Of a stretch of DNA of 64,000 nucleotides, positions 1 through 52,961 are shown piece after piece. Under the pieces are notes generated by a model. That model was not told the origin of the DNA and searched no databases. It was given only the letters and a program-made list of their open reading frames with translations. A program made the position numbers and the translations under genes. Position 1 is the stretch's first letter; each line of letters opens with the position of its first letter. This DNA comes from Lachnospiraceae bacterium (lineage in GTDB: Bacteria; Bacillota; Clostridia; Lachnospirales; Lachnospiraceae). The stretch covers positions 1-64,000 of the forward strand of contig JAFXXN010000053.1 of NCBI GenBank assembly GCA_017542245.1, in the 5' to 3' direction.

Positions 1-1021
1 CGGTAACGTCAGTTGTTCTGAAATAGAACTGAGGTCTGTAGTTGTTGAAGAAAGGTGTATGACGTCCACCCTCGTCCTTGGTAAGAACGTAAACCTGAGC
101 GGTAAACTTCTTATGGCAATGAACTGAACCGGGCTTAACGAGAACCTGTCCTCTTTCGATATCTGTTCTGTTTACACCACGAAGAAGGCAACCGATGTTA
201 TCACCAGCCTGACCTTCATCAAGGAGCTTACGGAACATTTCAACACCTGTAACAACAACCTTACGGGTCTCTTCACGAACACCAACGATCTCAACTTCGT
301 CAGATACATGAACTACACCACGCTCTACACGGCCGGTAGCAACTGTACCACGACCGGTGATAGAGAATACGTCCTCGACAGGCATAAGGAAAGGCTTATC
401 TGTATCACGAACGGGATCAGGGAAGTACTCATCAACTGTATGCATAAGTTCAAGGATCTTATCGCCCCACTCTCCTGAAGGATCTTCAAGAGCCTTAAGA
501 GCTGAACCACGAATGATAGGACAACCTGTGAAGCCATACTCTTCAAGCTGCTCAGTGATCTCCATTTCAACGAGCTCTAAGAGTTCTTCATCATCAACCA
601 TATCACACTTGTTCATGAATACAACGATTCTCGGAACACCAACCTGACGTGAAAGAAGGATGTGCTCCTTTGTCTGAGCCATAACACCGTCGGTAGCAGC
701 TACAACAAGGATAGCGCCGTCCATCTGAGCAGCACCGGTGATCATGTTCTTAACGTAGTCAGCATGGCCGGGGCAGTCAACGTGTGCGTAATGTCTCTTC
801 TCTGTCTCATACTCAACGTGAGCGGTTGAGATTGTTATACCACGTGCCTTCTCTTCGGGAGCCTTGTCGATCTTATCAAAATCAACAACCTCGCCAAGTC
901 CAAGTCTTGTAGCAAGAACCTTGGTGATAGCAGCAGTTAAAGTGGTCTTACCATGATCAACGTGACCAATGGTACCAATGTTACAATGGGGCTTAGTTCT
1001 TTCGAATTTTGCTTTTGCCAT
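1..1021 (-). CDS. tuf: Elongation factor Tu (partial, C-terminus off the left edge)
   Basis: EF-Tu is the GTPase that carries aminoacyl-tRNA to the ribosomal A site. The reading frame starts at an ATG whose complement is at 1019-1021, behind an AAGGAGGAA ribosome binding site. It opens [19 protein letters not shown], followed by the P-loop GHVDHGKT at residues 19-26. About 340 of the usual roughly 397 residues are inside the window; the end of domain 3 is missing. It is the last gene of the rpsL-rpsG-fusA-tuf group but has its own consensus-like promoter at 1147-1175, which fits its need for high output. Identification is secure. Confidence 0.97.
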
Positions 1022-1146
1022 TTCTAAATTTCCTCCTTAAATTATGCTCTTCTTGAGCTAATGAAATATTGCCGGCAGCATGTGTCCGGTCGATGCGGTG
1101 CTGCCCTTTAGCATATGTTTGGGAGTCAAAACCGCTCATATGCTAC

Positions 1147-1175
1147 ATTATATTGCAAAACATAAATTTTTTCAA
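1147..1175 (-). promoter_or_regulatory. tuf promoter and structured leader
   Basis: On the minus strand TTGAAA (1170-1175) and TATAAT (1147-1152) are separated by exactly 17 nt. The leader that follows, about 120 nt long, contains two inverted repeats (AGCATATG with CATATGCT, and GGCAGCA with TGCTGCC) before the tuf ribosome binding site. This would give tuf a transcript separate from fusA. Whether the leader hairpins regulate anything cannot be seen. Confidence 0.7.
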
Positions 1176-1225
1176 GTATTATTTTATTTTTTGCTGATTA
1201 TTTATAAAAATTTTGTTTTTCAGGA

Positions 1226-3346
1226 TCATTTACCTGTTTTCTTATCAAGAACTTTCTCCTGAACACTCTTCGGAACGGGCTCATAGGTTGAGAAGAACAT
1301 TGAGAATGCTCCACGTCCCTGAGTCTTTGAACGAAGAGTTGTGGTATATCCGAACATTTCGGAAAGCGGTACATAACCACGGATAAGCTTGGTTCCGTTA
1401 ATATCCTCTGTTCCCTCGATACGTCCACGTCTTGAACTGATATCACCGATAACATCTCCCATGTAATCCTCGGGAACGGTGATTTCAACTCTCATGATGG
1501 GCTCTAAGAGAACGGGATTTGCCTTCTGCATAGCCTCCTTGAATGCCATAGAACCGGCAATCTTGAATGCCATTTCTGAAGAGTCAACTTCATGGAATGA
1601 ACCGTCATAGCAGTTAGCATGAACACCGAGTACAGGGAATCCGCCAAGGATACCTGACTTCATAGCATCTTCGATACCTGCTGAAACTGCAGGGATGTAT
1701 TCCTTCGGAATAGCTCCGCCGACAACAGTTGACTCAAATTCATAAGTCTTGTCGCCGTTAACATCCATAGGTGTGAAGATAACCTTACAGTGACCGTACT
1801 GACCACGTCCACCTGACTGCTTAGCATACTTGGAATCAACCTCAACCTCTTTTGTGATACCCTCTTTGTATGCAACCTGAGGAGCACCAACATTTGCCTC
1901 AACGTGGAATTCACGAAGAAGACGGTCAACGATGATATCAAGGTGAAGCTCGCCCATACCTGCGATAATGGTCTGGCCAGTTTCAGGGTTTGTGGTAACA
2001 CGGAATGTAGGATCTTCCTCGGCAAGCTTTGCAAGAGCCTCGCCCATCTTATCCTGTCCTGCCTTGGTCTTGGGCTCGATAGCGATATCGATAACGGGCT
2101 CCGGGAATTCCATAGACTCGAGGATAACGGGATGCTGCTCGTCACAGATAGTATCACCTGTGGTGGTATACTTAAGACCTACTGCTGCTGCAATATCACC
2201 TGAGTATACTTTATCGAGCTCCATTCTCTTATTAGCATGCATCTGAAGGATACGTCCAACTCTTTCCTTCTTATTCTTTGTTGCATTTAATATGTACGAA
2301 CCTGTATTCATAGTTCCTGAATAAACACGGAAGAATGCAAGTTTTCCTACGAAAGGATCTGCCATGATCTTGAATGCAAGTGCTGCGAAAGGCTCTTCAT
2401 CTGAAGACTTTCTGTGTACTTCATTTCCATCAAGGTCAGTACCCTTAATATCTGCTACATCTGTAGGTGCGGGCAGATACTCAATGACTGCGTCAAGTAG
2501 CTTCTGTACGCCCTTGTTTCTGTATGCTGTTCCGCAAAGTACAGGAATGATGGTACCTTCGATAGTTGCCTTACGAAGTGCCTTCTTTAAATCTTCAGTA
2601 CTGGGCTCTTCTCCACCGAGGTACTGATCGATAAGTTCTTCATCTGTCTCACAGATAGACTCGATCATTTTCTGCCTGTATTCTTCGCACTGTTCCTGCA
2701 TGTCAGCAGGGATATCTCCAACAGTGATATCCTGGCCCTTTTCGTCATTATAAATATATGACTTCATCTCAAAAAGGTCTACAATACCTTTGAAGGTATC
2801 TTCCTTACCGATAGGAAGTTCTACCGGAACAGGATTCTTTGAAAGCCTTGTACGGATCATGTCAACAACATTAAAGAAGTTCGCACCTGCGATATCCATC
2901 TTGTTGACAAATGCCATACGAGGAACATTGTATTTATCAGCCTGACGCCATACTGTTTCAGACTGAGGCTCAACACCGCCCTTTGCACAGAATACACCGA
3001 CAGCTCCGTCGAGTACACGGAGTGAACGCTCAACTTCTACTGTAAAGTCTACGTGACCGGGTGTGTCGATAATATTGATACGATGCTCTAAAGCTCCTGC
3101 CTTAGGCTTCGTGAACTCCTCCAATGTCCAGTGACATGTGGTAGCGGCTGAAGTGATGGTAATACCCCTTTCTTGTTCTTGCTCCATCCAATCCATTGTA
3201 GCAGTACCTTCATGAGTATCACCAATCTTATAATTGATACCGGTATAAAAAAGAATTCTCTCTGTAAGTGTGGTCTTGCCGGCATCGATATGAGCCATGA
3301 TACCTATATTTCTAGTTCTATCCAACGGATATTCTCTTCCAGCCAA
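1226..3346 (-). CDS. fusA: Elongation factor G
   Basis: EF-G catalyses ribosomal translocation and, with RRF, ribosome recycling. The product is 706 aa, normal for the family. The GTPase motifs are present: AHIDAGKT at residues 18-25, DTPGH near 95 and NKMD near 148. They are followed by EF-G domains II-V. The start codon is TTG (complement CAA at 3344-3346): the frame reads TTG-GCT-GGA for (M)AG, with AGGGGG 9 nt upstream and no better ATG. That is an unusual start for such a highly expressed gene. Only 14 bp separate it from rpsG, so the two are co-transcribed. Confidence 0.97.
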
Positions 3347-3360
3347 AGTAGTTTACCCCC

Positions 3361-3831
3361 TTACCATCTGAAATGAGCAAATGCCTTATTAGCCTCTGCC
3401 ATCTTATGCATATCTTCCTTACGCTTTACTGCGTTTCCTGAGTTATTGGAAGCGTCGATGATCTCTCCTGCGAGTCTGTCAATCTGTGTCTTCTCGCCTC
3501 TCTTACGTGAGAATAATGTCATCCAGCGAAGTGCAAGAGCCTGACGACGTTCTGCTCTAACCTCGATAGGTACCTGATATGTAGCACCACCGATACGGCG
3601 AGCCTTAACTTCAAGCTGAGGCATGATGTTGCCCATAGCTGCTTCAAATACTTCCATAGCGTCTTTACCGGTCTTCTCAGCTACCTGCTCAAAAGCACCG
3701 TAGACAATCTTCTGTGCTGTACCCTTTTTGCCATCAAGCATGATATTGTTGATGAGCTTTGTTACAACCTTGCTGTTGTAAATAGGATCAGCTAATACAT
3801 CTCTTTTTGGTGTATGTCCTTTACGTGGCAC
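3361..3831 (-). CDS. rpsG: 30S ribosomal protein S7
   Basis: S7 nucleates assembly of the 30S head and binds the 3' major domain of 16S rRNA. The length of 156 aa is the family norm. The protein opens [18 protein letters not shown] and carries the conserved GGATYQVP stretch. Initiation is at GTG (complement CAC at 3829-3831) behind TAAGGAGGGAAG. The gene lies between rpsL and fusA in the classic str order. The 226-bp gap to rpsL contains a possible weak promoter (TTGACA at 3896-3901, TATGAT at 3875-3880, spacing only 15 nt). Confidence 0.97.
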
Positions 3832-4057
3832 GTTACTTCCCTCCTTAATGAATTTGCGATTTAATCGCCATTAGATCATAGGTACTCACATTCTGTGTCA
3901 ACATGCTTAACTTATTAGTTCAAATTTAATATTGCACGGTTATCCCGCTGCCTGCCGCTTGTTTTGAAAAACTAAGCCAAACATTACGTTAAATATGAGT
4001 TGTTTTTTAATTGTAGTTTCATTCTTGCGAAAATACATCGCATTTTTACGAGTTAAC

Positions 4058-4474
4058 TTATTTCTTCTTAGGTCTCTTTGCGCCGTACTTGGAACGAGCC
4101 TGCATACGCTTAGCAACGCCTGCGGTATCAAGAGTTCCACGGATGATATGATATCTGGTACCGGGAAGATCCTTAACACGGCCTCCACGTACAAGAACAA
4201 CGCTGTGCTCCTGAAGGTTATGTCCCTCGCCCGGGATATAGCTAGTTACTTCCATACCGTTTGAAAGACGTACTCTGGCAATCTTACGAAGTGCTGAGTT
4301 AGGCTTCTTAGGTGTAGTAGTCTTAACTGCTGTACAAACGCCACGCTTCTGAGGTGAAGACATATCAAATGACTTCTTATTTAATGAATTGAAGCTTACC
4401 TGAAGAGCAGGTGCGGTTGACTTTTTCTCAACAGTCTGTCTGCCTTTTCTTACCAACTGATTAAATGTAGGCAT
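4058..4474 (-). CDS. rpsL: 30S ribosomal protein S12
   Basis: S12 sits at the decoding centre. The start is the ATG at 4472-4474 ([12 protein letters not shown]), behind TAAGGAGGAA, and gives 138 aa. The frame stays open further upstream but has no ribosome binding site there and overruns the promoter, so I reject that longer start. The [13 protein letters not shown] and [11 protein letters not shown] stretches are typical of S12 and include the lysine positions where streptomycin resistance arises in other bacteria; both lysines are wild type. It is the first gene of rpsL-rpsG-fusA. Confidence 0.97.
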
Positions 4475-4577
4475 TAATTTTTCCTCCTTATTATGATTTT
4501 GATAAATAAAGCGGCCGGCAACACTTCCTATTAAAGTGCGTAACAAAACAACGCATCCGAAAGTGCGCACAAAACGA

Positions 4578-4606
4578 ATTATACAAAGATTTTTTTTTAT
4601 TGTCAA
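4578..4606 (-). promoter_or_regulatory. rpsL operon promoter
   Basis: TTGACA (4601-4606) and TATAAT (4578-4583) on the minus strand are 17 nt apart, a perfect sigma-A consensus. The leader to rpsL is about 95 nt. The position between the upstream terminator hairpin and rpsL makes the str group an independent transcription unit, not a continuation of rpoBC. Confidence 0.85.
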
Positions 4607-4628
4607 GTAAAATTTGAAGTTTTTTGTA

Positions 4629-4674
4629 AAGAGTGACAACAGGGGACGGCGAACCGTCCCCTGTTGTCACTCTT
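4629..4674. repeat. Perfect 21-bp inverted repeat (GGGGACGG hairpin), probably a terminator
   Basis: Arms 4629-4649 and 4654-4674 are perfectly complementary around the 4-nt loop CGAA, with GGGGACGG/CCGTCCCC at the tip. It lies after the fusion gene and before the rpsL promoter, where a terminator is expected. On the minus strand it is followed by TTTACAAAAAA, not a clean T run. The ACGG..CCGT tip recurs in hairpins at 27408-27446 and 60163-60205, so this is a dispersed hairpin family. Another imperfect hairpin (GCTTAGAAA with TTTCTAAGC) occupies about 4699-4732. Confidence 0.7.
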
Positions 4675-4734
4675 AAGTGCATCTTCATGTTAACGGTGCT
4701 TAGAAAATTTTTTTCGCTAAAATTTCTAAGCTAA

Positions 4735-7260
4735 TCAAGCAGTTACAATTGCGTTAGCGGCCTGAAGTCCAAACTTCTCGACTGCGTCCTCTCGCATCTT
4801 GTATTTAAGTATTTTACCTGCTGCGTTCATTGGGAAGGAATCTACAAAGTCAACATATCTCGGGATTTTGTGTTTTGCCATGTTCTTTCTTACATAATCC
4901 TTGAGTTCGTCAGCTGTCATTGTTTCGCCTTCTTTAAGGATAACGCAGGCCATGATCTCCTCACCGTAGTCACGGTCCGGAACACCTATAACCTGAACAT
5001 CGTCAACCTTTGGATGGGTATAAATAAATTCTTCTATTTCTTTCGGGTAGATATTCTCACCGCCTCTGATGATCATATCTTTTATACGTCCGGTTATCTT
5101 GTAATTGCCTTCCGGAGTACGTCTTGCAAGATCGCCGGTATGAAGCCATCCGTTCTCATCTATAGCTGCTGCTGTAGCTTCAGGCATTTTGTAATATCCC
5201 TTCATTATATTATAACCGCGGGCTACAAACTCTCCATCTACATTATCAGGAAGATCCTCTCCCGTCTCCGGATCCACGATCTTACACTCAACACCGTAGA
5301 AAGGACCACCTACTGTATTTACTCTGACTTCAAGAGAATCTGTCGTCTTACTCATGGTACATCCGGGACTTGCCTCGGTCTGACCGTAAACAATAACAAT
5401 TTCGGTCATGTTCATCTTGTCCACAACCTCCTGCATTACCTTGATAGGGCAGGGACTTCCGGCCATGATACCTGTTCTCATATGAGAAAAGTCTGTTTTG
5501 TCAAAATTCTCATGTCCGAGCATTGCAATAAACATAGTAGGAACGCCATGAAATGCCGTAATCTTCTCGCGGTTTATGCAGTCAAGGCCTTTTCTCGGTG
5601 AAAAAGCGGTTATAGGACACATTGTAGTTCCGTGTGTCATCGATGCAGTCATTGCCAAAACCATTCCGAAACAGTGGAACATAGGCACCTGGATCATCAT
5701 CCTGTCAGCCGTTGAAAGATCCATACCGTCACCTATGGCTTTTCCGTTATTTACTACATTATAATGTGTAAGCATAACTCCCTTAGGGAAACCGGTTGTA
5801 CCGGATGTATACTGCATGTTTGCCACATCATGTTTATCTATAAAACGACGTCTGAACTCAACTTCCTTCTGTGATACCGTATCCGAAAGAGAAATTGCCT
5901 CATCCCAAGTATAGCATCCGGGATGCTTGCCGCCGGCCACGACTACATTCTTAAGAACAGGCAGTCTTTCTGCCGCAAGATGACCGGGCTGGCAATCCTT
6001 AAGTTCCGGACAAAGCTCGTTTATTATCTCTACATAGTTAATATCCTTAAAATTCTCTATCATTACCAGGGTCTGGGTATCCGACTGACGCAGAAGATAT
6101 TCTATTTCGTGTACACGATATGCGGTATTAACAGTAACCAGAACCGCTCCTATCTTCGTTGTTGCCCAAAAGGTTATATACCACTGAGGTACATTTGTAG
6201 CCCAGATAGCAACATGATCGCCTTTTCTTACACCCATTGCAATAAGACTTCTGGCAAAAGTATCAACATCATTCCTGAACTCTATATATGTTCTTGTATA
6301 ATCAAGTTCAGTGTATCTAAATGCATACTGATCCGGGAATTCCTTGCACATACGGTCAAGTACATCAGGGAATGTATAATCGATCAGCTGTTCCTTAGGC
6401 CAAACGTATTTACCGGTATGAGCTTTATTATCCTGAAGTTTATCCTCACGCTCAGCACGGTATTCAGCCATATAGTTAGCAAAATGAGGAAATGCAATAC
6501 CTGCATTCTGGAGCTCTTTGTCCCAGCGTTTTACCCATTCCAATGATACATAGCCGCTATAACCTATCTCAGCCAATGAAGCAAATATGCTCTTTAAGGG
6601 CATATCACCCTGTCCCATAAGCTTATATTTAGGTTTTCCGTTTACCATTATACTGTCCTTTACATGGACATGTTTAATATATGCGCCTATATTCTTTACG
6701 GTTTCCTCGGGAGATTCCTCCATATATCTGTATGGATGATGAATATCCCAGAGAACAGCCACCCTGTTACTTTCTGTATTTTCAATAAGTCTCTTCATAC
6801 GGAGAGTATCCGAATATACACCGTTAGTCTCTACAAGCAGTGTTATCCCTTCATATTTTGAAGCTATCTCTGCCAGTTCCTTTAATACGGATACAACATA
6901 TTCATCATCTGCATCAGAAACAGGCTCCGGATCTTTATCGGCCAGAAGCCTTATATAGGGAGCTTTTAATTTATCCGCAAGTTCTATATAATCGGATACT
7001 TCCTTTATACACAAATCGTGATCTTCCTTTTCTTTTAGGCAGCACCCTGTGTCAAGGCAAGGAATCTCAAGTCGCAGTTCCGATAGTTTTTTCTTGGTAG
7101 CTTCAATTCTTTTAGGACCAAACTCCGGAGTATTTACCACAGAAATCTGATCTCCGATACCACGTAATTCTATTCCGTCAAAACCTAAATCTTTTGCCAT
7201 TGAATAGATGTCAACCCAGCTAAAATCGGGTGTTGCGATTGTTGAAAAACTGATTTTCAC
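4735..7260 (-). CDS. Fusion protein: TIM-barrel sugar isomerase/epimerase-like domain + AMP-forming acyl-CoA synthetase
   Basis: An 841-aa two-domain protein. Residues 1 to about 275 look like the xylose-isomerase-like TIM-barrel family (sugar phosphate isomerase/AP endonuclease 2 fold), with likely metal ligands in VETN (E144), WDIHH (D172), HVHVKD (about 197-202) and SLEW (E241). Residues about 295-835 are an adenylate-forming acyl-CoA synthetase: YTSGTTGFPKG at 484-494, YGQTEAS, the hinge region GRIKDMIIRGGENIYPKE, and the C-terminal catalytic lysine in AAGKILKYK. The frame is continuous with one ribosome binding site, so the fusion is real in this sequence. Substrates are unknown. Possibly a sugar-derived or hydroxy acid is isomerised and then activated, but that is inference. 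It is a single gene with terminator-like hairpins downstream. Confidence 0.85.
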   Translation of the reverse strand: MKISFSTIATPDFSWVDIYSMAKDLGFDGIELRGIGDQISVVNTPEFGPKRIEATKKKLSELRLEIPCLDTGCCLKEKEDHDLCIKEVSDYIELADKLKAPYIRLLADKDPEPVSDADDEYVVSVLKELAEIASKYEGITLLVETNGVYSDTLRMKRLIENTESNRVAVLWDIHHPYRYMEESPEETVKNIGAYIKHVHVKDSIMVNGKPKYKLMGQGDMPLKSIFASLAEIGYSGYVSLEWVKRWDKELQNAGIAFPHFANYMAEYRAEREDKLQDNKAHTGKYVWPKEQLIDYTFPDVLDRMCKEFPDQYAFRYTELDYTRTYIEFRNDVDTFARSLIAMGVRKGDHVAIWATNVPQWYITFWATTKIGAVLVTVNTAYRVHEIEYLLRQSDTQTLVMIENFKDINYVEIINELCPELKDCQPGHLAAERLPVLKNVVVAGGKHPGCYTWDEAISLSDTVSQKEVEFRRRFIDKHDVANMQYTSGTTGFPKGVMLTHYNVVNNGKAIGDGMDLSTADRMMIQVPMFHCFGMVLAMTASMTHGTTMCPITAFSPRKGLDCINREKITAFHGVPTMFIAMLGHENFDKTDFSHMRTGIMAGSPCPIKVMQEVVDKMNMTEIVIVYGQTEASPGCTMSKTTDSLEVRVNTVGGPFYGVECKIVDPETGEDLPDNVDGEFVARGYNIMKGYYKMPEATAAAIDENGWLHTGDLARRTPEGNYKITGRIKDMIIRGGENIYPKEIEEFIYTHPKVDDVQVIGVPDRDYGEEIMACVILKEGETMTADELKDYVRKNMAKHKIPRYVDFVDSFPMNAAGKILKYKMREDAVEKFGLQAANAIVTA

Positions 7261-21089: not shown

Positions 21090-21312
21090 AAGAAAAGGCG
21101 ATATAAAAATCGCCTTTAATATTCCGTGAAACACCCAAAGTGCCGCTTCCCTCTTTCTGAGTCCTAGCAAATGCTAGGTGGGTGACCTCACTTAGACCGC
21201 TGTCTTCCACTCAACGGAGGCCTGACATTAACCTAAAAATGTTGGAATCCCTTATTATGAATGTAGGTTCAAAAATACAGGATCACGCACACCTCAGGAT
21301 GTTTCTTGTTAT
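21090..21312 (-). ncRNA. ssrS: 6S RNA
   Basis: A roughly 220-nt non-coding gene with its own promoter and terminator. The 5' part reads CATCCTGAGGTGTGCG and the 3' part AAGCGGCACTTTGGGTG. These pair as the closing stem (AAACATCC with GGGTGTTT, AGGTGT with GCACTT) and resemble the conserved ends of 6S RNA (E. coli CTGAGATGTTCGC and GCGGCATCTCGGAG). Inside are an upper stem-loop (CCGTTG with CAGCGG) and a 3'-side bubble hairpin (CCTAGC ATTT GCTAGG), both expected for Firmicutes 6S RNA. 6S RNA sequesters the housekeeping RNA polymerase in stationary phase. The exact ends are estimates. Confidence 0.85.
21094..21117 (-). terminator. 6S RNA terminator
   Basis: AAAGGCGAT with ATCGCCTTT around a 6-nt loop, followed on the minus strand by a long T-rich run. 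Confidence 0.85.
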
Positions 21313-45415: not shown

Positions 45416-45706
45416 TTAGGTATCCTCTTTAAGCCTTGCTTTATGATGGGGATTTTTCCTTACTATTTCTGCTCCGGCAGCAAGTTCGGTTAAAATAGCA
45501 GCACCATATGTCACACTTATGGAATCTACCTTCGATAAAAGTTCACCCTGTTCGGTTGAAACATATTTGGGTTTCAATCTGTTTAATGCATAACATAATA
45601 TATCTGTCTTACATATATCACAAGTACAGCAGTTCAGTTCAGGTAACAACTGCTCTAACTTATCTTCGACCATATTTTCCATTATGTTTCTAACCAAAAC
45701 AGCCAT
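45416..45706 (-). CDS. ComFB-like protein
   Basis: 96 aa from the internal ATG (MAVLVRNIMENMV), because GGAGGTG lies 6 nt before it. The core CCTCDICKTDILCYALNRLKPKYVSTEQGEL matches the late-competence ComFB family (CxC..C.DI.a.ALN.LpP.Yv). The cysteines could bind zinc. ComFB-type proteins occur in competence loci and in cyanobacterial second-messenger signalling; here the gene stands alone, downstream of the nitrogenase-like operon, with its own promoter. Role here unknown. Confidence 0.85.
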   Translation of the reverse strand: MAVLVRNIMENMVEDKLEQLLPELNCCTCDICKTDILCYALNRLKPKYVSTEQGELLSKVDSISVTYGAAILTELAAGAEIVRKNPHHKARLKEDT

Positions 45707-45745
45707 TCCGTTCACCTCCGACATATGACCTGTCCAACCAGTTTC

Positions 45746-45850: not shown

Positions 45851-47041
45851 TTATTTTCCGTTACCGGCAAAACCTGTACCGGCTGCCGCAACAGGTGAAA
45901 AAATCTTATCCGCCTGTTCCTTCGTAAGCGTTATACCAAATACTTCTTTATAGTAATTAATTGTTTCTTCCGTAATGTCAACATCATCAAAGAGTGCCGG
46001 ATATGCGGTTTTTGCCAACCACAGCAGTGTTACAGGAGTATCAACTCCGCAAGTATAACTCCTGTACATCCCAAGAGGCATTTTATATACCTGTTTGTTC
46101 TTTATTGCATCAATTTCATTCCAGTTATAATTTCCGACTGTATTATTATACAGATCATCAGGAGTAGCCGTATTAAAGTTAGTGATAAATATCATTTCGG
46201 GATTCCATGAATAAATCTGTTCCATATTCACCGCAACCGAATTATCATTTTCAAGTTCTTCTGCGGCATTTATCGCTCCGATAGCATCACACCACCACTG
46301 TCCGAAAAATTTTTTTCCGCTTGTCATAATATTTGAATCAGAATACTGGAACAGGAAAAATGCCTTAACCTTTTTTTCATCAGGCATTCCGCTGACTTTA
46401 TCCTGCACCCGCTTATACGTCTTTTCAGAGTATTCTCTTACAATAGCCGACTTATTATTATCAGGGAAAAGCTGAACCAGTGTTTCAATCCACTGATTTA
46501 ATGTTTCAATTGCATCATAACCCCATTTCCCGGGAGAAATTGCTATGGCGGGTATTCCTGCATTTTTATATACTTCTCCCTCTTCTTTACTTCCTGCACT
46601 GTAGAATACCACATCCGGATCCAGTTTCATGAGTTCTTCTACATTTACATTTGTGCCGTCAATAAAATCTGTTTTTGCATTTAATATTTCAGGATATAAT
46701 TCACCTAAAAGTCCATTCTTTGCCGCACTCATACAGGGAGGTGCCATTCCTACAATCTTTTCTGCCGAATCAAAAAATACGGTAAGCACCGATGCCATAG
46801 GGTAAATATCTGCCACAACAATTCTCTTTATATCATTTGGAACTTCAACCTGATTTCCCGCATGATCCGTGACAATGTGTTTTCCCTCTGAAGCCGTCTG
46901 TTTGTTATCACCGTTTCCTTCATTTCTGGAATCATTATTTCCCGTGCCTCCGTTACCGGTATTTCCTGAATTCCCCGAACTGCATGCAGCAAGTCCCAGT
47001 ATAAGAACTGCGCTTAACAATAATGCCACTAACTTCTTCAT
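45851..47041 (-). CDS. ABC transporter substrate-binding lipoprotein (iron-complex/cobalamin type)
   Basis: 396 aa. Signal peptide with lipobox LGLAAC, lipid-attached Cys20, then a Gly/Asn/Thr-rich linker. The mature part has the class III (BtuF/FhuD/FecB) plan: IKRIVVADIYPMASVL near the N-terminus, a long backbone helix in the middle, and PEMIFITNF in the second lobe. It would deliver a metal chelate, corrinoid or tetrapyrrole to the FecCD-type permease encoded five genes upstream in the same operon. Placing the binding protein last, after the nitrogenase-like genes, ties transport and reduction together. The ligand is unknown. Confidence 0.88.
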   Translation of the reverse strand: MKKLVALLLSAVLILGLAACSSGNSGNTGNGGTGNNDSRNEGNGDNKQTASEGKHIVTDHAGNQVEVPNDIKRIVVADIYPMASVLTVFFDSAEKIVGMAPPCMSAAKNGLLGELYPEILNAKTDFIDGTNVNVEELMKLDPDVVFYSAGSKEEGEVYKNAGIPAIAISPGKWGYDAIETLNQWIETLVQLFPDNNKSAIVREYSEKTYKRVQDKVSGMPDEKKVKAFFLFQYSDSNIMTSGKKFFGQWWCDAIGAINAAEELENDNSVAVNMEQIYSWNPEMIFITNFNTATPDDLYNNTVGNYNWNEIDAIKNKQVYKMPLGMYRSYTCGVDTPVTLLWLAKTAYPALFDDVDITEETINYYKEVFGITLTKEQADKIFSPVAAAGTGFAGNGK

Positions 47042-47091
47042 TTAAAAATCACCTCTTGATTATTTATTTCAGATACACTAATGTATCATGA

Positions 47092-48342
47092 TCACAAAAC
47101 AATTATAGAAACATCTTTTATCAGATCAGGAATGTCATTTCTGAATAATCTCCCGGAAAAAGCTTCATGCGGAACCGGGATAAATTTTAGTTCTTTATTA
47201 TCATATGTCTTCTTACATATGGGTTTAAACAGCGGATCTGCGATAACAGCTTTTAAATTTTCTCCTGACATGATAATTTCTTTTATATCATCCTCACATA
47301 TATCCGTAGCCGTAAGAGCCACAGTACAATACTCCGTCTTCATGTTTATATATGCTGCAAGTGACTTGGAACTTACTCCCTCTCCGATTACAATAACATC
47401 TGCGTTCTTCATTTCTCTGCAGATATCATCCTTTTGTTCAAGGCTGAGATTTCTCACTTTTTTATCTGTATCATATCTTTTTTTATAAAAAATCGTTATA
47501 ATATTCTCTTCATTAACATCTTCGCTGTAGCACTTTTCCAGGCTGATATCCTCCCCGCCTATCGGGATTCCGATCTTATACGGTGTTCCGAACATACTTT
47601 TCAGTCTATATGCCACCTTTAGTCCGCTTTCCGAAACCACATAATTCAGATGCGCCGTTCCGGCCTTTTCAATATCCGTAAGTCTGCTCCCCATAGCCCA
47701 CGATGAAATGATTTCAATTCCTTGTTTGCCCAGCCATTCCCTTATTGAATCAACACTCCCGTTAACAGAAAAATCCAGCGGTGTCAATCCTAAAATATTA
47801 GCTGTCGTTTTTTCTGATTTTTTTAAATCTTTTTTTACTACCCTTTCAGCTAGTCTTAAAAACGCTTCTTCGGCTCCATGAATATATGATCTCATACCGG
47901 TTGTCCCAAATCCGAATGCCGGAATCCCCGTTTCTGATTCAATTATATTAACAGCAGCATTCACATCAAAGCCGGTCATTGCAGGGATCGTAGTTCCGAC
48001 TATGGCAATAAAAGCCGGTCTTAATTCCCGAGCCGTTTCGATAACATCAGATATCAGCTTCCCGTCATCTCCCATAATTGCTTCTATTTCAGTTAAACCT
48101 GATATATAAACCATACCGTCGGTATCATACCATCTGGGTTCATCGTGTGTTGTATATGTAGAATTACATCCGGATGCATCATGCATGACTATCATTCCGC
48201 CAAGTTCAAATAAAGCAGAGCATACGCCGAATGAATCCGCCGAATATGTTGAAATAAAACCTGATGTCTGTTTCAAGTCACTTCTCCTTTTCAAATTCAA
48301 GTTAAGAACTTCGGGGGTAAAGCTACTATTTTCACCCTTCAC
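47092..48342 (-). CDS. Nitrogenase component 1-like subunit (NifD/NifK superfamily), small partner
   Basis: 416 aa. Family features: GVCSALFELGGMIVMHDASGCN near the N-terminus with Cys41 and Cys59, and the region ISGLTEIEAIMGDDGKL. Where NifD/NifK have their third P-cluster cysteine, this protein appears to read VGTTIPAMTG without Cys, so at most two ligands remain. Initiation is at GTG, overlapping the end of the 458-aa gene by 11 bp, so the two subunits are translationally coupled and likely form a heteromer. Nearest characterised relatives by architecture would be DPOR, COR, CfbD and Mar reductases, not true nitrogenase; substrate unknown. Confidence 0.82.
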   Translation of the reverse strand: MKGENSSFTPEVLNLNLKRRSDLKQTSGFISTYSADSFGVCSALFELGGMIVMHDASGCNSTYTTHDEPRWYDTDGMVYISGLTEIEAIMGDDGKLISDVIETARELRPAFIAIVGTTIPAMTGFDVNAAVNIIESETGIPAFGFGTTGMRSYIHGAEEAFLRLAERVVKKDLKKSEKTTANILGLTPLDFSVNGSVDSIREWLGKQGIEIISSWAMGSRLTDIEKAGTAHLNYVVSESGLKVAYRLKSMFGTPYKIGIPIGGEDISLEKCYSEDVNEENIITIFYKKRYDTDKKVRNLSLEQKDDICREMKNADVIVIGEGVSSKSLAAYINMKTEYCTVALTATDICEDDIKEIIMSGENLKAVIADPLFKPICKKTYDNKELKFIPVPHEAFSGRLFRNDIPDLIKDVSIIVL

Positions 48343-49708
48343 CGCAACATCCGCAGCCCATACCCTTTATCTGGACCAGACCACGCATATCCTTTTTATT
48401 TGCGACGGCATCTCTCATAAGTTCCAGGGTGTCGATTATAGCTTCAAATCCAAACATTCCGCCACCTTCAACTACATTTACAAAATAATCGGTATTAAGA
48501 AAATATGCTGCTTTCTGCCCTAATGCAAGCCATTTTTCTCCGGATTTTTTTTCTCCGGAAGCCATAAATCTTGATTTTACATTAACCGTAGCATAAATCA
48601 TAAGATCAGGATAATTTTCTTTCAGATAAACATAATCCGCCTTTTCCTCATCTATGAACCCGTCAAGATAAAGTCTCTTCACATTAAAGCCATGTTCAAG
48701 TAAAGCTTTTGCAACCGATGTCGGTCTTTGACAAAATGTATAATCTATGGCTATAGGTATATCCCTTGTAATTTCCAAAGTTTTTCCAAATTCTTCCTCG
48801 CACAGAGCAATCTTTTTTTCATAATCAGTTTCGGAAATAATACCATTGCTCACACTGTCTTCAAGACTGTAAAGTGTTTCTTCCAAAAGATTAAGCATCC
48901 CGGTTATCTCATTGTAATCCCAACTGTATGTCAGATAGAGATGTTTTCCTCCAAGCCTTTTCTCAAGTTCCTTTCCTCCGGCTTTTGCTGCAGGATAATA
49001 ACTGATATAAAGACTGCTTTCGGCCATTTCCTGATACTCGTTATAAGATCTGCATGAAGTTATTTCATGTATCTTCATCCCGTGCCCTTTAAGAATTCCT
49101 ATAATCTCCGAGCCTTCTGAAGTTGGCAGATCATTGCCTATTATAGCCACCGCTTTTTTATTTATCTCTCTCGGCTTCAAGAGTGCATAGAGCTGACGGC
49201 GCATTGTCTGATCGGGTGTAAGGCCGCTTTTCCTTAATGTAGGGTTCATATAGCAATCAACAAAATCTATATCAGGGAATCTATCCCTTAAAGAATCAAA
49301 CATAACTCTCCAGTCACACCCGGTAAAATGATGGACACAGCTGGTATATACCAGTATTGCAGGCGGTTTTTCAGGCAATTTGCCAATTATATCGCTTACC
49401 CCTTCTATCAGCAGTTCTTCCAGATTTCCTTCCAAAAGATTATTCTCTTTTATCTCAACAGTTGAAAATCTGTCCATGGCGTTCATTTCTGCTGCAGTGA
49501 GTACTACTCCTCTTAAACAGCTTGCCGCACAAACAAATATCTCATGTGCTTCCGGAATAAGCATACCTGTGTGTACAATATTCCATGTTCCCCTTGCAGG
49601 TGATGCATATTCAAGGCCGCTTTTAAAAGGGCTCGGGAATTCCGAATCGCCTATTCTTATAACCGCACCATTCTCTGTTATTTCCCTTTCTCCTACTTTT
49701 TTAAGCAT
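48332..49708 (-). CDS. Nitrogenase component 1-like subunit (NifD/NifK superfamily), large partner
   Basis: 458 aa. Cysteines fall where cluster ligands are expected: C60 and C64 (FVCAASCLRG), C124 and C131 (YTSCVHHFTGCDW) and C152. HH126-127 next to them is distinctive. The protein ends with MGCGCCGEG, an unusual C-terminal Cys-rich tail (C452, C454, C455) that could hold a further metal or receive electrons. It is followed by its partner with an 11-bp overlap and preceded by the NifH-like gene. No nifB, nifE/N, nifV or nifS is present, so FeMo-cofactor assembly is not expected. Confidence 0.82.
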   Translation of the reverse strand: MLKKVGEREITENGAVIRIGDSEFPSPFKSGLEYASPARGTWNIVHTGMLIPEAHEIFVCAASCLRGVVLTAAEMNAMDRFSTVEIKENNLLEGNLEELLIEGVSDIIGKLPEKPPAILVYTSCVHHFTGCDWRVMFDSLRDRFPDIDFVDCYMNPTLRKSGLTPDQTMRRQLYALLKPREINKKAVAIIGNDLPTSEGSEIIGILKGHGMKIHEITSCRSYNEYQEMAESSLYISYYPAAKAGGKELEKRLGGKHLYLTYSWDYNEITGMLNLLEETLYSLEDSVSNGIISETDYEKKIALCEEEFGKTLEITRDIPIAIDYTFCQRPTSVAKALLEHGFNVKRLYLDGFIDEEKADYVYLKENYPDLMIYATVNVKSRFMASGEKKSGEKWLALGQKAAYFLNTDYFVNVVEGGGMFGFEAIIDTLELMRDAVANKKDMRGLVQIKGMGCGCCGEG

Positions 49709-49802
49709 ATCTCACCTGCCAGATAACGGCTTTCCTTTCTCTTTAATCCGTTTTTTCCAAATAACTCTTTTTTAAGTAAAATAAATATCAAAAAACAAAT
49801 AT

Positions 49803-50549
49803 TCAATAATTGATAAGCTTCTCCGCCAATCTCCTATACTCTTCAGCCATATCACTGTCCGGAAATGCTTCAATAACTGTCTTTCCCAGTTCTTCTGCAT
49901 CCTGGACTATTTCACTGTGTGTCAGTTCTCCTATTACGGATGTGTTAAAATCAGAAGCCAGTTCCTCAACCTTTGCGTTTTCATTTTTTACATCTCTGTG
50001 ATTTAATATGATACCGCCTAATGAAGCATATCCCCTTGAACGGAAATTATCTATGGCCATAGCAATGTTAGCGGCAGCATGTATTGCCATATTTTCTCCC
50101 GATGTTATTATATATACCCTGTCGGCATATCCTGCATGCATCGGCATTGAAAATCCACCGCACACCACATCTCCAAGCACATCATAAAGAACAATATCCG
50201 GTTTATAAATCTCATAAGCTCCTTTTTCTTTTAGCTTATCCAGTGCTGCAATAATGCCTCGCCCTGCACAGCCGACTCCGGGAGTAGGTCCTCCCGCTTC
50301 TACACATAAAACCCCCGCAGTTCCTTCTACAACCATATCTTTATATTCAAAAGCATTCTTCTTTTCTCTTATAAGATCAAGCACAGTTGTGATTTTTTTA
50401 TCTTTTCTGAGGCTGAGTGTAGAATCTGCTTTAGGATCGCACCCGATCTGCATAACTTTAAACCCTTTTTCGCTCAAAGACACTGCTATATTTGAAACTG
50501 TTGTTGATTTTCCTATTCCGCCTTTTCCGTATATAGCTATTTTTTTCAT
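49803..50549 (-). CDS. NifH-like iron protein (reductase component)
   Basis: 248 aa. Walker A GKGGIGKST at residues 8-16; the switch I region CDPKADST; the two [4Fe-4S] ligands Cys94 (PGVGCAGRG) and Cys130 (LGDVVCGGFSMP), in the positions of NifH Cys97 and Cys132. It is therefore expected to be a homodimer bridged by one cluster, passing electrons in an ATP-dependent way to the NifD/NifK-like pair encoded next. It is shorter than NifH (about 290 aa), mainly at the C-terminus, as in BchL-, CfbC- and group IV-type proteins. Ribosome binding site GAGGAA. Confidence 0.92.
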   Translation of the reverse strand: MKKIAIYGKGGIGKSTTVSNIAVSLSEKGFKVMQIGCDPKADSTLSLRKDKKITTVLDLIREKKNAFEYKDMVVEGTAGVLCVEAGGPTPGVGCAGRGIIAALDKLKEKGAYEIYKPDIVLYDVLGDVVCGGFSMPMHAGYADRVYIITSGENMAIHAAANIAMAIDNFRSRGYASLGGIILNHRDVKNENAKVEELASDFNTSVIGELTHSEIVQDAEELGKTVIEAFPDSDMAEEYRRLAEKLINY

Positions 50550-50593
50550 ATTTTTTCCTCGTCTTTTCCTGTTTCTCTAAGTAACTTCTTCTT

Positions 50594-51391
50594 TTATTTT
50601 CTGGTTACATATATCGGAACAATGTTTTTTATTACCTCACCGTCCACCTGCATTTCATTTATTATTGCTTTTACTCCAAAAAAGTTTTCTATATTTTCCT
50701 CATTTACGACATCTCCGGTCCTCCCAAAAACCGGTAATCTTCCACCTAATAAAAGCGAACAGTCGGCTTTCTGCAGAGCATGCTTGGGATAGTGGGTATT
50801 AAAAATACAGCTGATCCCTTTTTTCTTTAATTTATCAAAAGTATTAAGTACTATAAGCTGATTTCTGAAATCAAGACCGGATTCAGGTTCATCAAGAATA
50901 AGAAGTTTTGGATTTGATACAAGAGCCTTTGCAATCAAAACCATCTGAAATTCTCCGCCGCTTAAAGAACTGCATGTCCTGTTTTTCAAGGCCGATATAC
51001 CCAGTTCTTCCATTATGTTTTCTGCGGCCTCCAAATCTGTTTTTTTAGGTACCCCGAAAAAGGATACCTGTCCGCTTCTTCCTAAAAGAACATTTTCAAA
51101 TGCAGTATACCCCGTAGCTGCCATACGTTGTTGAGGCACGTAACTCACCTTTTCCCAAAATTCCTTAAAACTAAGGGTATTTGTATCCCTTTCATCAAAA
51201 AAACTCTTGCCGCCGGTCCATTTCAGCATTCCCATAAGGCATCTTAAGAAAGTGGTTTTTCCGCTTCCGTTTGGCCCGAGGATTGCCATTATCTGTCCGC
51301 TCTCAAGGGAAATATTTACTTTATCGAATAATAGGTCTGCTTTTTCATTTTTGTCATAAGAAAATGAAACATTCTCTGTTCTCAATTTCAT
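50594..51391 (-). CDS. ABC transporter ATP-binding protein (FecE/BtuD type)
   Basis: 265 aa. Walker A GPNGSGKTT, Q-loop YVPQQ, signature LSGGEFQM (Phe-Gln where QQR or RQR is usual) and Walker B LLILDEPESGLD. The early FSYDKNEKADLLFDKVNISLE pattern fits iron-siderophore/cobalamin importer ATPases. It follows the permease gene and precedes the NifH-like gene. Confidence 0.92.
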   Translation of the reverse strand: MKLRTENVSFSYDKNEKADLLFDKVNISLESGQIMAILGPNGSGKTTFLRCLMGMLKWTGGKSFFDERDTNTLSFKEFWEKVSYVPQQRMAATGYTAFENVLLGRSGQVSFFGVPKKTDLEAAENIMEELGISALKNRTCSSLSGGEFQMVLIAKALVSNPKLLILDEPESGLDFRNQLIVLNTFDKLKKKGISCIFNTHYPKHALQKADCSLLLGGRLPVFGRTGDVVNEENIENFFGVKAIINEMQVDGEVIKNIVPIYVTRK

Positions 51392-51442
51392 CAGCTTTAT
51401 CTTCTCCTAAAAATTCTGCTATATAGAAGGCTTATACCTAAC

Positions 51443-52420
51443 TTATAACTTTTTTCTGGATGTAAGTATTAATATAAAGAATGGTGCACCGATTATGGCA
51501 GTAAGTATGGATACCGGAATTTCTGAAGCACTTACAGATCTGGCAACTGTGTCAACCATCACCATAAAAGCAGCTCCTATACAGATTGAAGCAGGTATCA
51601 GTTTTCGTCCATCCTGCCCCCAGATCATCCTGCACATATGAGGCACAATCAATCCTACCCAGCCTACCTGTCCACACATTGAGATTACTGAGCTTGTCAT
51701 AGCTGTAGCACAAATGACTACCAGGGTTCTTAAAAGCTTTACATTGGTTCCGGATGCGATAAGCTCATCTTCGGAAAGAGAAAGCAGATTCAGTCTCCAT
51801 CTTAAAAGAAATATTATTATAACGCTAACAATAATTACAGGTGCCCCTATCACGAGATTTTTATATCCCGCACTGCCAAGGCTTCCCATAAGCCAGTAAG
51901 TTATTGCCGGAAGCTGTGATTCGGCATCTGCCAAAAATTTTACAAGCGAAACGAGCGCCGAAAAAAGCGATCCTACCATAATCCCGGATATTATAAGGAC
52001 TGCAGGACCATGTCCTCTTCCCGAAGCCGTTAATCTGGTGATAACAACAGCGGCTATACCCATACACAGTGACAATATCTGAACACCTATCATATTAAAA
52101 CCAAGAAGTAATCCAAGCGCTGCGCCAAAGCTTGCTCCTCCTGCAACTCCCATAGTATCCGGTGTTGCAAGCGGATTCGAAAAGAATCCCTGGAAACTGC
52201 ATCCGGCTACAGATAACCCGGCTCCGCATAAAAGTCCTAAAAGTATTCTTGGAAGCCTGATATTCTGTATGGTTATTTTAACGCTTCCGCTGATATCCTG
52301 CGAACCGGTAAGTGCTTTCAGAACATCTAAAGGACTTATTGAATTTCTTCCTATGCAGAGACATACAAGCGCTGTAATGATAGGAAATATTATTAAAATA
52401 ATTATAGTCCGTTTTTTCAC
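51443..52420 (-). CDS. FecCD-type ABC transporter permease
   Basis: 325 aa with about ten hydrophobic helices. Family signatures: RLPRILLGLLCGAGLSVAGCSFQGFFSNPLATPDTMGVAGGASFGA and the C-terminal GQVGWVGLIVPHMCRMIWG. This is the permease class for siderophores, heme and cobalamin. Start is GTG behind GGGGA. Only one permease gene is present, so it should form a homodimer. It is the second gene of the operon. Confidence 0.95.
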   Translation of the reverse strand: MKKRTIIILIIFPIITALVCLCIGRNSISPLDVLKALTGSQDISGSVKITIQNIRLPRILLGLLCGAGLSVAGCSFQGFFSNPLATPDTMGVAGGASFGAALGLLLGFNMIGVQILSLCMGIAAVVITRLTASGRGHGPAVLIISGIMVGSLFSALVSLVKFLADAESQLPAITYWLMGSLGSAGYKNLVIGAPVIIVSVIIIFLLRWRLNLLSLSEDELIASGTNVKLLRTLVVICATAMTSSVISMCGQVGWVGLIVPHMCRMIWGQDGRKLIPASICIGAAFMVMVDTVARSVSASEIPVSILTAIIGAPFFILILTSRKKL

Positions 52421-52458
52421 AATTTCCCCGTCCTGTTTTCCCGAGCTGTCATTCCGCT

Positions 52459-52725
52459 CTATATTTCCTCTGACTCAGTGGTTACATTTGAGTAATTTGT
52501 TTTGGCTGAGACACCTTTCAGCTTTCCAATCTTTCCGGTCATACTGTTTATTTCATCTTCAGGGGCATCTATCGCCACACATATAATATTAACATTTTTC
52601 TCTCTATAGGGCAGTCCCATCCTGCCGATGATCCTCTCCCTAAACTGTGATAAAATCGAATTAAGTTTTTCCACAGAGGAAACGTCCTCAAGTATTATCG
52701 ATATAACTGCAACTCTTTTTTTCAT
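52459..52725 (-). CDS. TM1266-type ACT-domain regulator ('iron-only hydrogenase system regulator')
   Basis: 88 aa from the ATG at 52723-52725 behind CAGGAG; the longer frame upstream runs into the terminator and is rejected. The pattern MKKRVAVISIILEDVSSVEKLN, IIGRMGLPYR, CVAIDAPEDEINSMTGKIGKLKGV matches the small NikR/ACT-like TM1266 family, usually found beside [FeFe]-hydrogenase maturation genes. No hydrogenase gene lies here. As first gene of the operon it may sense or regulate iron-sulphur or metal status; this is inference from family context. Confidence 0.8.
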   Translation of the reverse strand: MKKRVAVISIILEDVSSVEKLNSILSQFRERIIGRMGLPYREKNVNIICVAIDAPEDEINSMTGKIGKLKGVSAKTNYSNVTTESEEI

Positions 52726-52770: not shown

Positions 52771-52961
52771 AAAAAGAGCTGTATCCGTAAAAGGATACAG
52801 CTCTGATACCTGATTATATATTAAAAAAACCGGTTCCAAAAAGGACAGATTACATATGCTAAAAGAATCCGGGCAGAACTCATCTTTCCCCTATCCGAAT
52901 TAACATCATAATATGTCGTTTATCTTTCACTTCAATTTTGTTACATTTCAGTGTCAGAGCT
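52771..52961 (-). promoter_or_regulatory. Riboswitch-like leader of the nitrogenase-like/ABC operon (class not recognised)
   Basis: The leader from about 52961 ends in a perfect 12-bp terminator (arms 52775-52786 and 52793-52804, loop 6 nt, then TTTTT on the minus strand), 46 nt before the first gene. The first bases of the transcript (AGCTCTGA, complement at 52953-52960) can pair with TCAGAGCT (complement at 52799-52806), which overlaps the 5' arm of the terminator. The two helices are therefore mutually exclusive. The roughly 145 nt between the P1 arms contain further stems: CACU/AGUG with inner AAU/AUU and tandem G-A mismatches, and AAUUCGG/CCGGAUU around a GGGGAAAGAUGAG loop. I see no cobalamin, FMN, Moco, NiCo or T-box signature. 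In this geometry ligand-stabilised P1 would switch expression on. Confidence 0.65.

Follow-up and report, generated by a model that had tools for sequence, protein, structure and literature searches.

Nitrogenase-like genes of a Lachnospiraceae operon as a probable substitute for HydG in [FeFe]-hydrogenase H-cluster maturation

In the maturation of [FeFe]-hydrogenases, HydG makes an Fe(CO)2(CN) synthon from tyrosine. Only one pathway, that of HydE, HydF and HydG, is presented for H-cluster biosynthesis; in it, HydG passes an Fe(CN)(CO)2(cysteine) synthon directly to HydE (PMC12752695). A 2022 survey of acetogens assigned HydE and HydF but no HydG in Clostridium ljungdahlii, C. ragsdalei, C. 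coskatii, C. carboxidivorans and AWRP; its passage on these five offers no straightforward explanation and raises two ideas, an atypical HydG-like radical S-adenosylmethionine (SAM) protein or the use of free CO and cyanide (PMC9431212). The same survey reports HypC-F without HypA or HypB in C. autoethanogenum, C. ljungdahlii, C. coskatii, AWRP and C. ragsdalei, and refers to the purification of an electron-bifurcating [FeFe]-hydrogenase from C. autoethanogenum, HydG being assigned there by motif (PMC9431212). A loose link of nitrogenase-like gene families to hydrogenase maturation or to transporters was published in 2012, when NifHEN-like genes of Coprococcus catus, Dorea longicatena, Clostridium botulinum and C. 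cellulovorans were left unassigned (Dos Santos 2012, PMC3464626). Here, we compare with these systems a seven-gene operon located in the first 64,000 nucleotides of contig JAFXXN010000053.1 of a Lachnospiraceae bacterium (assembly GCA_017542245.1), a stretch hereafter called the window, in which nitrogenase-like reductase genes are embedded among those of an ATP-binding cassette (ABC) importer. This operon is probably a HydG-replacing branch of H-cluster maturation. The observations behind this proposal are gene content, gene order, the absence of HydG, and an unchanged HydE.

Locus types and partners of the reductase genes

The NifH-, NifD- and NifK-like proteins are collectively called HDK, H1-D1-K1 being those of the window's clade and H2-D2-K2 a second, more distant set; G and L numbers designate genomes and loci. 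A D1 search of 250 genomes of the window's family returns matches in 33. Type A (seven genomes, including the window's) combines importer genes with H-D-K. Type B (16 genomes) shows no importer genes next to its H-D-K over the sequence retrieved; it also has H2-D2-K2 and HypF, HypD, HypE and usually HypC. This type was mostly assigned from loci showing hyp genes, which are seen at the locus in 15 of the 16; G091, whose HypD sits on another contig, was assigned from its second HDK set and lack of an importer, and G167, in which no D1 was found, from what remains of K1 where the contig begins, together with H2-D2-K2 and hyp genes. Type C (eight genomes) exhibits a more distant H-D-K (D 24-29% identical) with importer genes in a different order. 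The two other loci are a partial one close to the type B first set, or B1 (G245), and a distant one (G239). In two loci, long frames of 854 and 812 residues (L055:5448-8012 and L071:9354-11792) replace separate D2 and K2 and are apparent subunit fusions, while two type B genomes hold a further divergent K-D pair (L075 of G191 and L076 of G124; D ~21% identical), accompanied by an H gene in L075.

A D1-alignment scan of public genomes provides a second, named set, the best 80 loci among the matches listed, which may overlap the family set. Sixty of them carry importer genes (type A), seven carry HypF/HypD (type B) and 13 are untyped, lying on short contigs or having lost genes to antisense frames in the simple open reading frame caller. 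The seven type B loci all belong to Clostridium (C. carboxidivorans, C. ljungdahlii, C. ragsdalei, C. drakei, C. muellerianum, C. thailandense and C. luticellarii), and each is ordered H2-D2-K2-HypF-HypC-HypD-HypE-H-D-K. The same HDK clade thus occurs without importer genes in 16 of the 23 type A and B family genomes, within the stretches fetched, and in these seven loci: the importer is not its constant partner. A reading of the window made from its sequence only had seen the purpose of the reductase in reducing an imported chelate or tetrapyrrole. This is not supported as the principal explanation, as reductase and transporter genes are found apart, the condition under which that reading was to be refuted, and the genes that do stay constant are HydF and HydE.

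HydF scores above cut-off in 137 of the 250 family genomes. HydG was sought in 65 genomes (33 with and 32 without a D match) and in 80 more HydF-positive ones, a search that leaves aside 15 HydF-positive genomes, mostly of low completeness. Among the 24 type A, type B and G245 genomes, HydF is present in all but G175, and HydG only in G224. HydG is therefore found in 1/23 HydF-positive family genomes with HDK versus 93/97 tested without any D match (Fisher exact p 5e-19, with G245 counted on the HDK side and the HydF-positive type C genomes G048, G072 and G143, two of which have HydG, on neither). One of the 93 HydG is a fragment only; counting it as absent and leaving G245 out gives p 1e-17. 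In the named set, 50 HDK genomes were checked (30 of the 80 loci being left out of these counts), with HydF in 50/50 and HydG in 5/50, namely C. drakei, two Intestinibacter bartlettii, C. thailandense and a Ruminococcus metagenome assembly. Of the 21 family HDK genomes from which HydE was fetched, 20 yielded it (not G226; G091, G167 and G245 were left out). The window's own assembly encodes HydE, HydF and HydA on contigs other than the operon's (575, 552 and 896 bits, all above cut-off). The constant partners of the HDK clade are HydF and HydE, with HydG usually missing.

Physical linkage is also observed. HydE and/or HydF lie within the locus in 31/60 type A, 0/7 type B and 5/13 untyped loci of the best 80, and HydG in 0/80. 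In the family set, they adjoin the operon in four of the seven type A genomes (G227, G117, G134 and G226) and fall within the HDK/Hyp cluster in six of the 16 type B genomes (L053, L055, L059, L061, L070 and L071). The tightest HDK/Hyp/Hyd link seen is in L070 (G230, 952-5725), where HydE and HydF are located between D2 and K2, inside an H2-D2-K2-HypF run. A full cassette is present in the metagenome assembly L150, ordered TM1266-permease-ATPase-HydE-H-D-K-binding protein-HydF. Among close relatives, L091, L092 and L094 carry a HydF gene between the binding protein and ComFB, and L093 resembles the window. Co-occurrence and shared clusters with HydE and HydF thus group HDK with [FeFe]-hydrogenase maturation. 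In the G245 contig C67 (L088), a short [FeFe]-hydrogenase-like frame (~456 residues, 108 bits) lies ~1.5 kb past the K gene.

The acetogens fit this distribution. Profile searches return no HydG over cut-off in C. carboxidivorans, C. ragsdalei, C. ljungdahlii, C. luticellarii and C. muellerianum, and the only HydG-profile match at E <=1e-15 in C. ljungdahlii and C. ragsdalei falls in a frame of HydE size. C. ljungdahlii, C. ragsdalei and C. carboxidivorans, reported as devoid of hydG (PMC9431212), carry the type B HDK together with HypFCDE. The main texts examined on C. autoethanogenum do not contain the terms nitrogenase, HypF, HydG or HydE.

HydE itself does not register which system accompanies it. 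In a tree of 44 proteins, chosen by BLAST to the G000 protein (G000 being the window's assembly) and with two HydE confirmed by the family model, those from HDK and from HydG genomes interleave (15 label changes versus 14.8 expected at random), at least four changes being forced by well-supported branches; two Clostridium HydE form their own branch. No alignment column separates the two groups of these 44 proteins at a 70% rule. HydF behaves similarly, in a poorly resolved tree. Since HydE is unchanged across groups, the HDK and HydG routes probably end in the same HydE substrate.

The operon and its reductase

The window belongs to a 4.72 Mb assembly of 203 contigs (97% complete, 8.6% contamination). 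The seven collinear genes reported by the sequence-only reading are confirmed on the minus strand from 52725 to 45851, by their coordinates, by Pfam and NCBIfam matches, and by recurrence of the gene order in relatives, which indicates that the arrangement is not due to chance. They are listed below in gene order, followed by the next gene downstream.

52459..52725, minus strand: TM1266-family gene, 88 residues from the ATG at 52725, the frame being extendable to a TTG at 52839
51443..52420, minus strand: FecCD/BtuC-type importer permease (PF01032, 7.4e-82), in an equivalent position in type A relatives
50594..51391, minus strand: ABC importer ATPase (PF00005, 1.5e-32)
49803..50549, minus strand: H, NifH-like ATP-driven reductase (PF00142, Fer4_NifH, 6.8e-88)
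48332..49708, minus strand: D1, NifD/E-like subunit with a Cys-rich C-terminal tail (PF00148, Oxidored_nitro, 6.5e-11)
47092..48342, minus strand: K1, NifK/N-like subunit (PF00148, Oxidored_nitro, 1.4e-24)
45851..47041, minus strand: importer substrate-binding lipoprotein (PF01497, Peripla_BP_2, 9.6e-19)
45416..45724, minus strand: ComFB-like gene (PF10719, 2.8e-22)

Successive intergenic gaps measure 38, 51, 44 and 94 bases, then the D and K frames overlap by 11 bases, and 50 bases precede the lipoprotein gene. The first gene belongs to the TM1266 family (TM1266-like Pfam/NCBIfam match, 1.8e-30; TIGR03959, 108.8 bits for a cut-off of 60.8), which is named as a putative regulator of the iron-only hydrogenase system. 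Permease, ATPase and binding-protein class together identify a FecCD/BtuCDF-type importer, the closest solved chains to the lipoprotein being 4ovk and then HI_1472. Searching the assembly returns one TM1266 match and a single NifH-like match at full score, the next best reaching 43 bits. An Rfam scan of the window reports no riboswitch over threshold; its sole match is a 6S RNA (RF00013, 65.8 bits) at 21128-21303 on the minus strand, far from the operon.

The cluster cysteines C94 and C130, already noticed in the NifH-like protein, are invariant in 14 aligned homologues. By alignment, C64 and C124 of D1 occupy the NifD C88 and C154 positions, the NifD C62 equivalent is missing, and the one invariant cysteine of K1, Cys59, is at the NifK C95 position. 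The ligands of the iron-molybdenum cofactor (FeMo-co) are not kept, the two D1 rows shown having Tyr in place of Cys275 and no residue aligned with His442. The Cys-rich C-terminal tail, under a strict pattern, is found in 89/99 D1-type proteins longer than 400 residues and in 0/38 D2 or type C proteins; one may speculate that it holds iron or product.

Quick trees of D and K unite types A and B1, interleaved, in a single clade (SH-aLRT 100 and 99), apart from the Nif, Mar-like and Bch rows, the long-branch Bch rows lying outside; long branches leave the deep order unsure. CfbD, IsrD and characterised MarD have no rows in these trees, the distance to Cfb being drawn from hidden Markov model scores and that to Mar from Mar-like rows picked by eye from cysteine-synthase-like neighbours. 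Equivalog scores stay below cut-off for nifH (317 versus 394 bits), nifE (65 versus 505), BchL (196 versus 345), BchX (162 versus 331), BchB (43.5 versus 490), CfbC (317 versus 402) and CfbD (26 versus 268), and no Mar or Isr model is among the family-model matches of HDK. Membership in the following groups is rejected: for the Mo, V and Fe nitrogenases (NifHDK), and hence nitrogen fixation, by the missing Cys275 and His442 and by scores far under cut-offs; for DPOR and COR (BchLNB, BchXYZ) by scores and by a position outside Bch; for CfbCD, which comprises only H and D, by scores and by the presence of a K subunit; and for MarHDK by the absence of Cys275 and by the Mar-like rows, chosen by eye, lying elsewhere in the tree. 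The earlier assignment to a nitrogenase-superfamily reductase unlikely to fix nitrogen therefore stands, and the superfamily tree it called for places HDK in a clade separate from the Nif, Mar-like and Bch rows.

A candidate route to the H-cluster and competing explanations

If the operon replaces HydG, HDK would act as an ATP-driven nitrogenase-like reductase that, with a precursor source, supplies an Fe(CO)/(CN) unit in the stead of HydG, this unit being handed to ordinary HydE and HydF. In type B, HypF and HypE would make cyanide from carbamoyl phosphate, and HypC and HypD would place it on iron, beside the second HDK; one or both HDK sets would perform low-potential reductions, perhaps of CO2 to CO. 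Isolated nitrogenase Fe proteins can indeed reduce CO2 to CO. In type A, the importer and binding protein would replace HypCDEF and H2-D2-K2 by bringing in an iron- or ligand-bearing precursor, and the imported compound should then substitute for their product. The reaction would probably be a low-potential reduction forming or installing CO on an Fe-CN unit, this product, like the imported compound, being deduced from the genes.

The distribution of Hyp proteins is consistent with this scheme. Among 69 family genomes, HypD is found in 16/16 type B, a count that is partly by construction because type B was mostly assigned from loci showing hyp genes, in 0/7 type A, and elsewhere in only three genomes, each with a [NiFe] large-subunit match. 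Fourteen of the 16 type B genomes have HypD and no [NiFe]-hydrogenase match; the two with a match, G069 and G230, both carry a second HypD close to it. The C-terminal cysteine of HypE carries the nitrile group; it is kept, as the last residue of a PRIC terminus, in each of the 22 type B HypE proteins recovered. In C. ljungdahlii, the type B HypF, HypC, HypD and HypE score above family cut-offs. With this cysteine kept, these scores, and mostly no [NiFe] match, type B looks to retain an apparently working cyanide chemistry that serves a purpose other than [NiFe] maturation in most family hosts.

Several observations weigh against the replacement of HydG by HDK. The two coexist in G224 and in the five named-set genomes listed above, the type A genome G175 is devoid of HydF over cut-off, and four HydF-positive genomes have neither HydG nor the HDK clade (among these four, G142 is the only one with a PF00148 pair, which adjoins a gene judged by eye to be cysteine-synthase-like). 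The related type C importer-linked HDK is present where HydF is absent, so the wider HDK family has another or a wider role. In the stretch examined, the seven type B loci of Clostridium are devoid of HydE, HydF and TM1266 genes, and TM1266 is seen at 24/60 type A loci of the named set. The [FeFe]-hydrogenase family match, found in 39/39 genomes (24/24 with HDK and 15 others, HydF-negative ones included), does not discriminate and was dropped for this purpose; the best match has E <1e-84 in 21/24 HDK genomes and likewise in some HydF-negative type C genomes. With just two well-supported independent pairs, the HydF tree is underpowered as a test of independence. Finally, each acetogen of the survey has a [NiFe]-hydrogenase, so that HypCDEF may serve both hydrogenases there, and atypical radical SAM proteins are named as possible HydG (PMC9431212).

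A possible, if tentative, alternative keeps HDK in H-cluster maturation and takes it off the HydG step: CO and cyanide would come from elsewhere, such as CO dehydrogenase or HypEF, and HDK would provide a low-potential reduction or a NifEN-like scaffold. P-cluster-type cysteines without FeMo-co ligands would be in keeping with scaffolding or electron transfer, a part in metallocluster assembly was guessed in 2012 (PMC3464626), and the use of free CO and cyanide without HydG has been discussed for acetogens (PMC9431212). However, the maturase that is missing is HydG, rather than HydE or HydF, and HydE is unchanged, which favours a substitution at the HydG step.

It is unlikely that the importer brings in a siderophore, haem or corrinoid that HDK reduces or opens for nutrition, the hydrogenase link being incidental. 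This explanation draws on the importer genes embedded in the operon and on the type C relatives and a Sporomusa plasmid locus, in which HDK-like and importer genes occur together, in the Sporomusa case close to a TonB siderophore receptor. Against it, the same HDK clade lies beside HypFCDE without an importer, 22 of the 23 HydF-positive HDK family genomes are devoid of HydG, and about half of the type A loci of the best 80 (31/60) include HydE and/or HydF. The Sporomusa locus itself (L176, S. termitida plasmid pSPTER) has HDK-like genes adjoining a two-permease iron importer, an AraC regulator and TonB receptors, and represents another importer-linked branch. On the Treponema saccharophilum plasmid pTS1 (L175), a type C HDK-importer cluster resides in a spirochaete, which suggests transfer between phyla.

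It is very improbable that HydG only seems absent because metagenome assemblies are incomplete, or that common ancestry accounts for its absence: although most HDK genomes are draft or metagenome assemblies and the HydF tree has few well-supported independent pairs, 45 of the 50 assemblies that all have HydF show no HydG over cut-off, as does C. carboxidivorans, titled a complete genome, the HydE tree forces at least four label changes on well-supported branches, and an independent survey likewise failed to assign hydG in five acetogens (PMC9431212).

Within the proposed replacement of HydG, there is a slim chance that type A bacteria scavenge a pre-made iron-cyanide or iron-carbonyl-cyanide precursor through the FecCD importer, HDK finishing the HydE substrate, and that some type C bacteria even import a near-complete cofactor. 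In three type C genomes, hydrogenase catalytic subunits contain either three or all four of the H-cluster motifs sought (L259 and L260 in G059, L261 and L262 in G228, L263 in G244); no HydF or HydG over cut-off is found in them, nor any HydE-like match in the HydG search. If true, such scavenging would be a trade in organometallic cofactor parts among gut microbes. More broadly, a second, nitrogenase-like supply of the CO/CN iron unit would change the single-pathway picture of H-cluster biosynthesis, give a function to a large, unassigned group of nitrogenase relatives, and explain hydrogenase maturation without hydG in gas-fermenting acetogens such as C. ljungdahlii, a question open to direct testing in industrial strains.

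Comparison with described systems

The sequence-only reading knew of no characterised system with this exact composition, and none was found in the open-licence literature searched. Among the titles and abstract openings listed, we found no proposal that nitrogenase-like genes replace HydG, nor any statement presenting the importer form and the HypCDEF form as alternatives or linking them to the absence of hydG in acetogens. The closest description is that of Dos Santos 2012, whose genes share the anatomy reported here, either a linked pair of NifHEN-like copies adjoining hydrogenase maturation proteins or NifHEN-like genes next to ABC transporters, and whose cysteine pattern for Coprococcus catus and Dorea is that of D1 and K1 (PMC3464626). 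In the passages concerned, the two arrangements are not joined and no pathway is given, and the main text has no mention of HydG or HypD (PMC3464626).

DPOR, COR, CfbCD, MarHDK and IsrHDK resemble the operon's reductase by their H, D and K subunits and by [4Fe-4S]-type cysteine ligands that are partly kept. In contrast to DPOR, COR, CfbCD and MarHDK, HDK scores below the Nif, Bch and Cfb model cut-offs, is separate in the trees from the Nif, Mar-like and Bch rows, and has no Cys275. The HypCDEF proteins of [NiFe] maturation are matched by the type B set in the scores of the C. ljungdahlii proteins and in the HypE C-terminal cysteine; they differ in their setting, 14 of the 16 type B genomes being devoid of a [NiFe]-hydrogenase match and HypD being found in none of the seven type A genomes. 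Lastly, HDK shares with HydG its genomic partners HydE, HydF and HydA and, by inference, a product given to HydE. The two nevertheless belong to unrelated protein families and, judging from these families, HDK would rely on ATP and an Fe protein where HydG relies on SAM and tyrosine.

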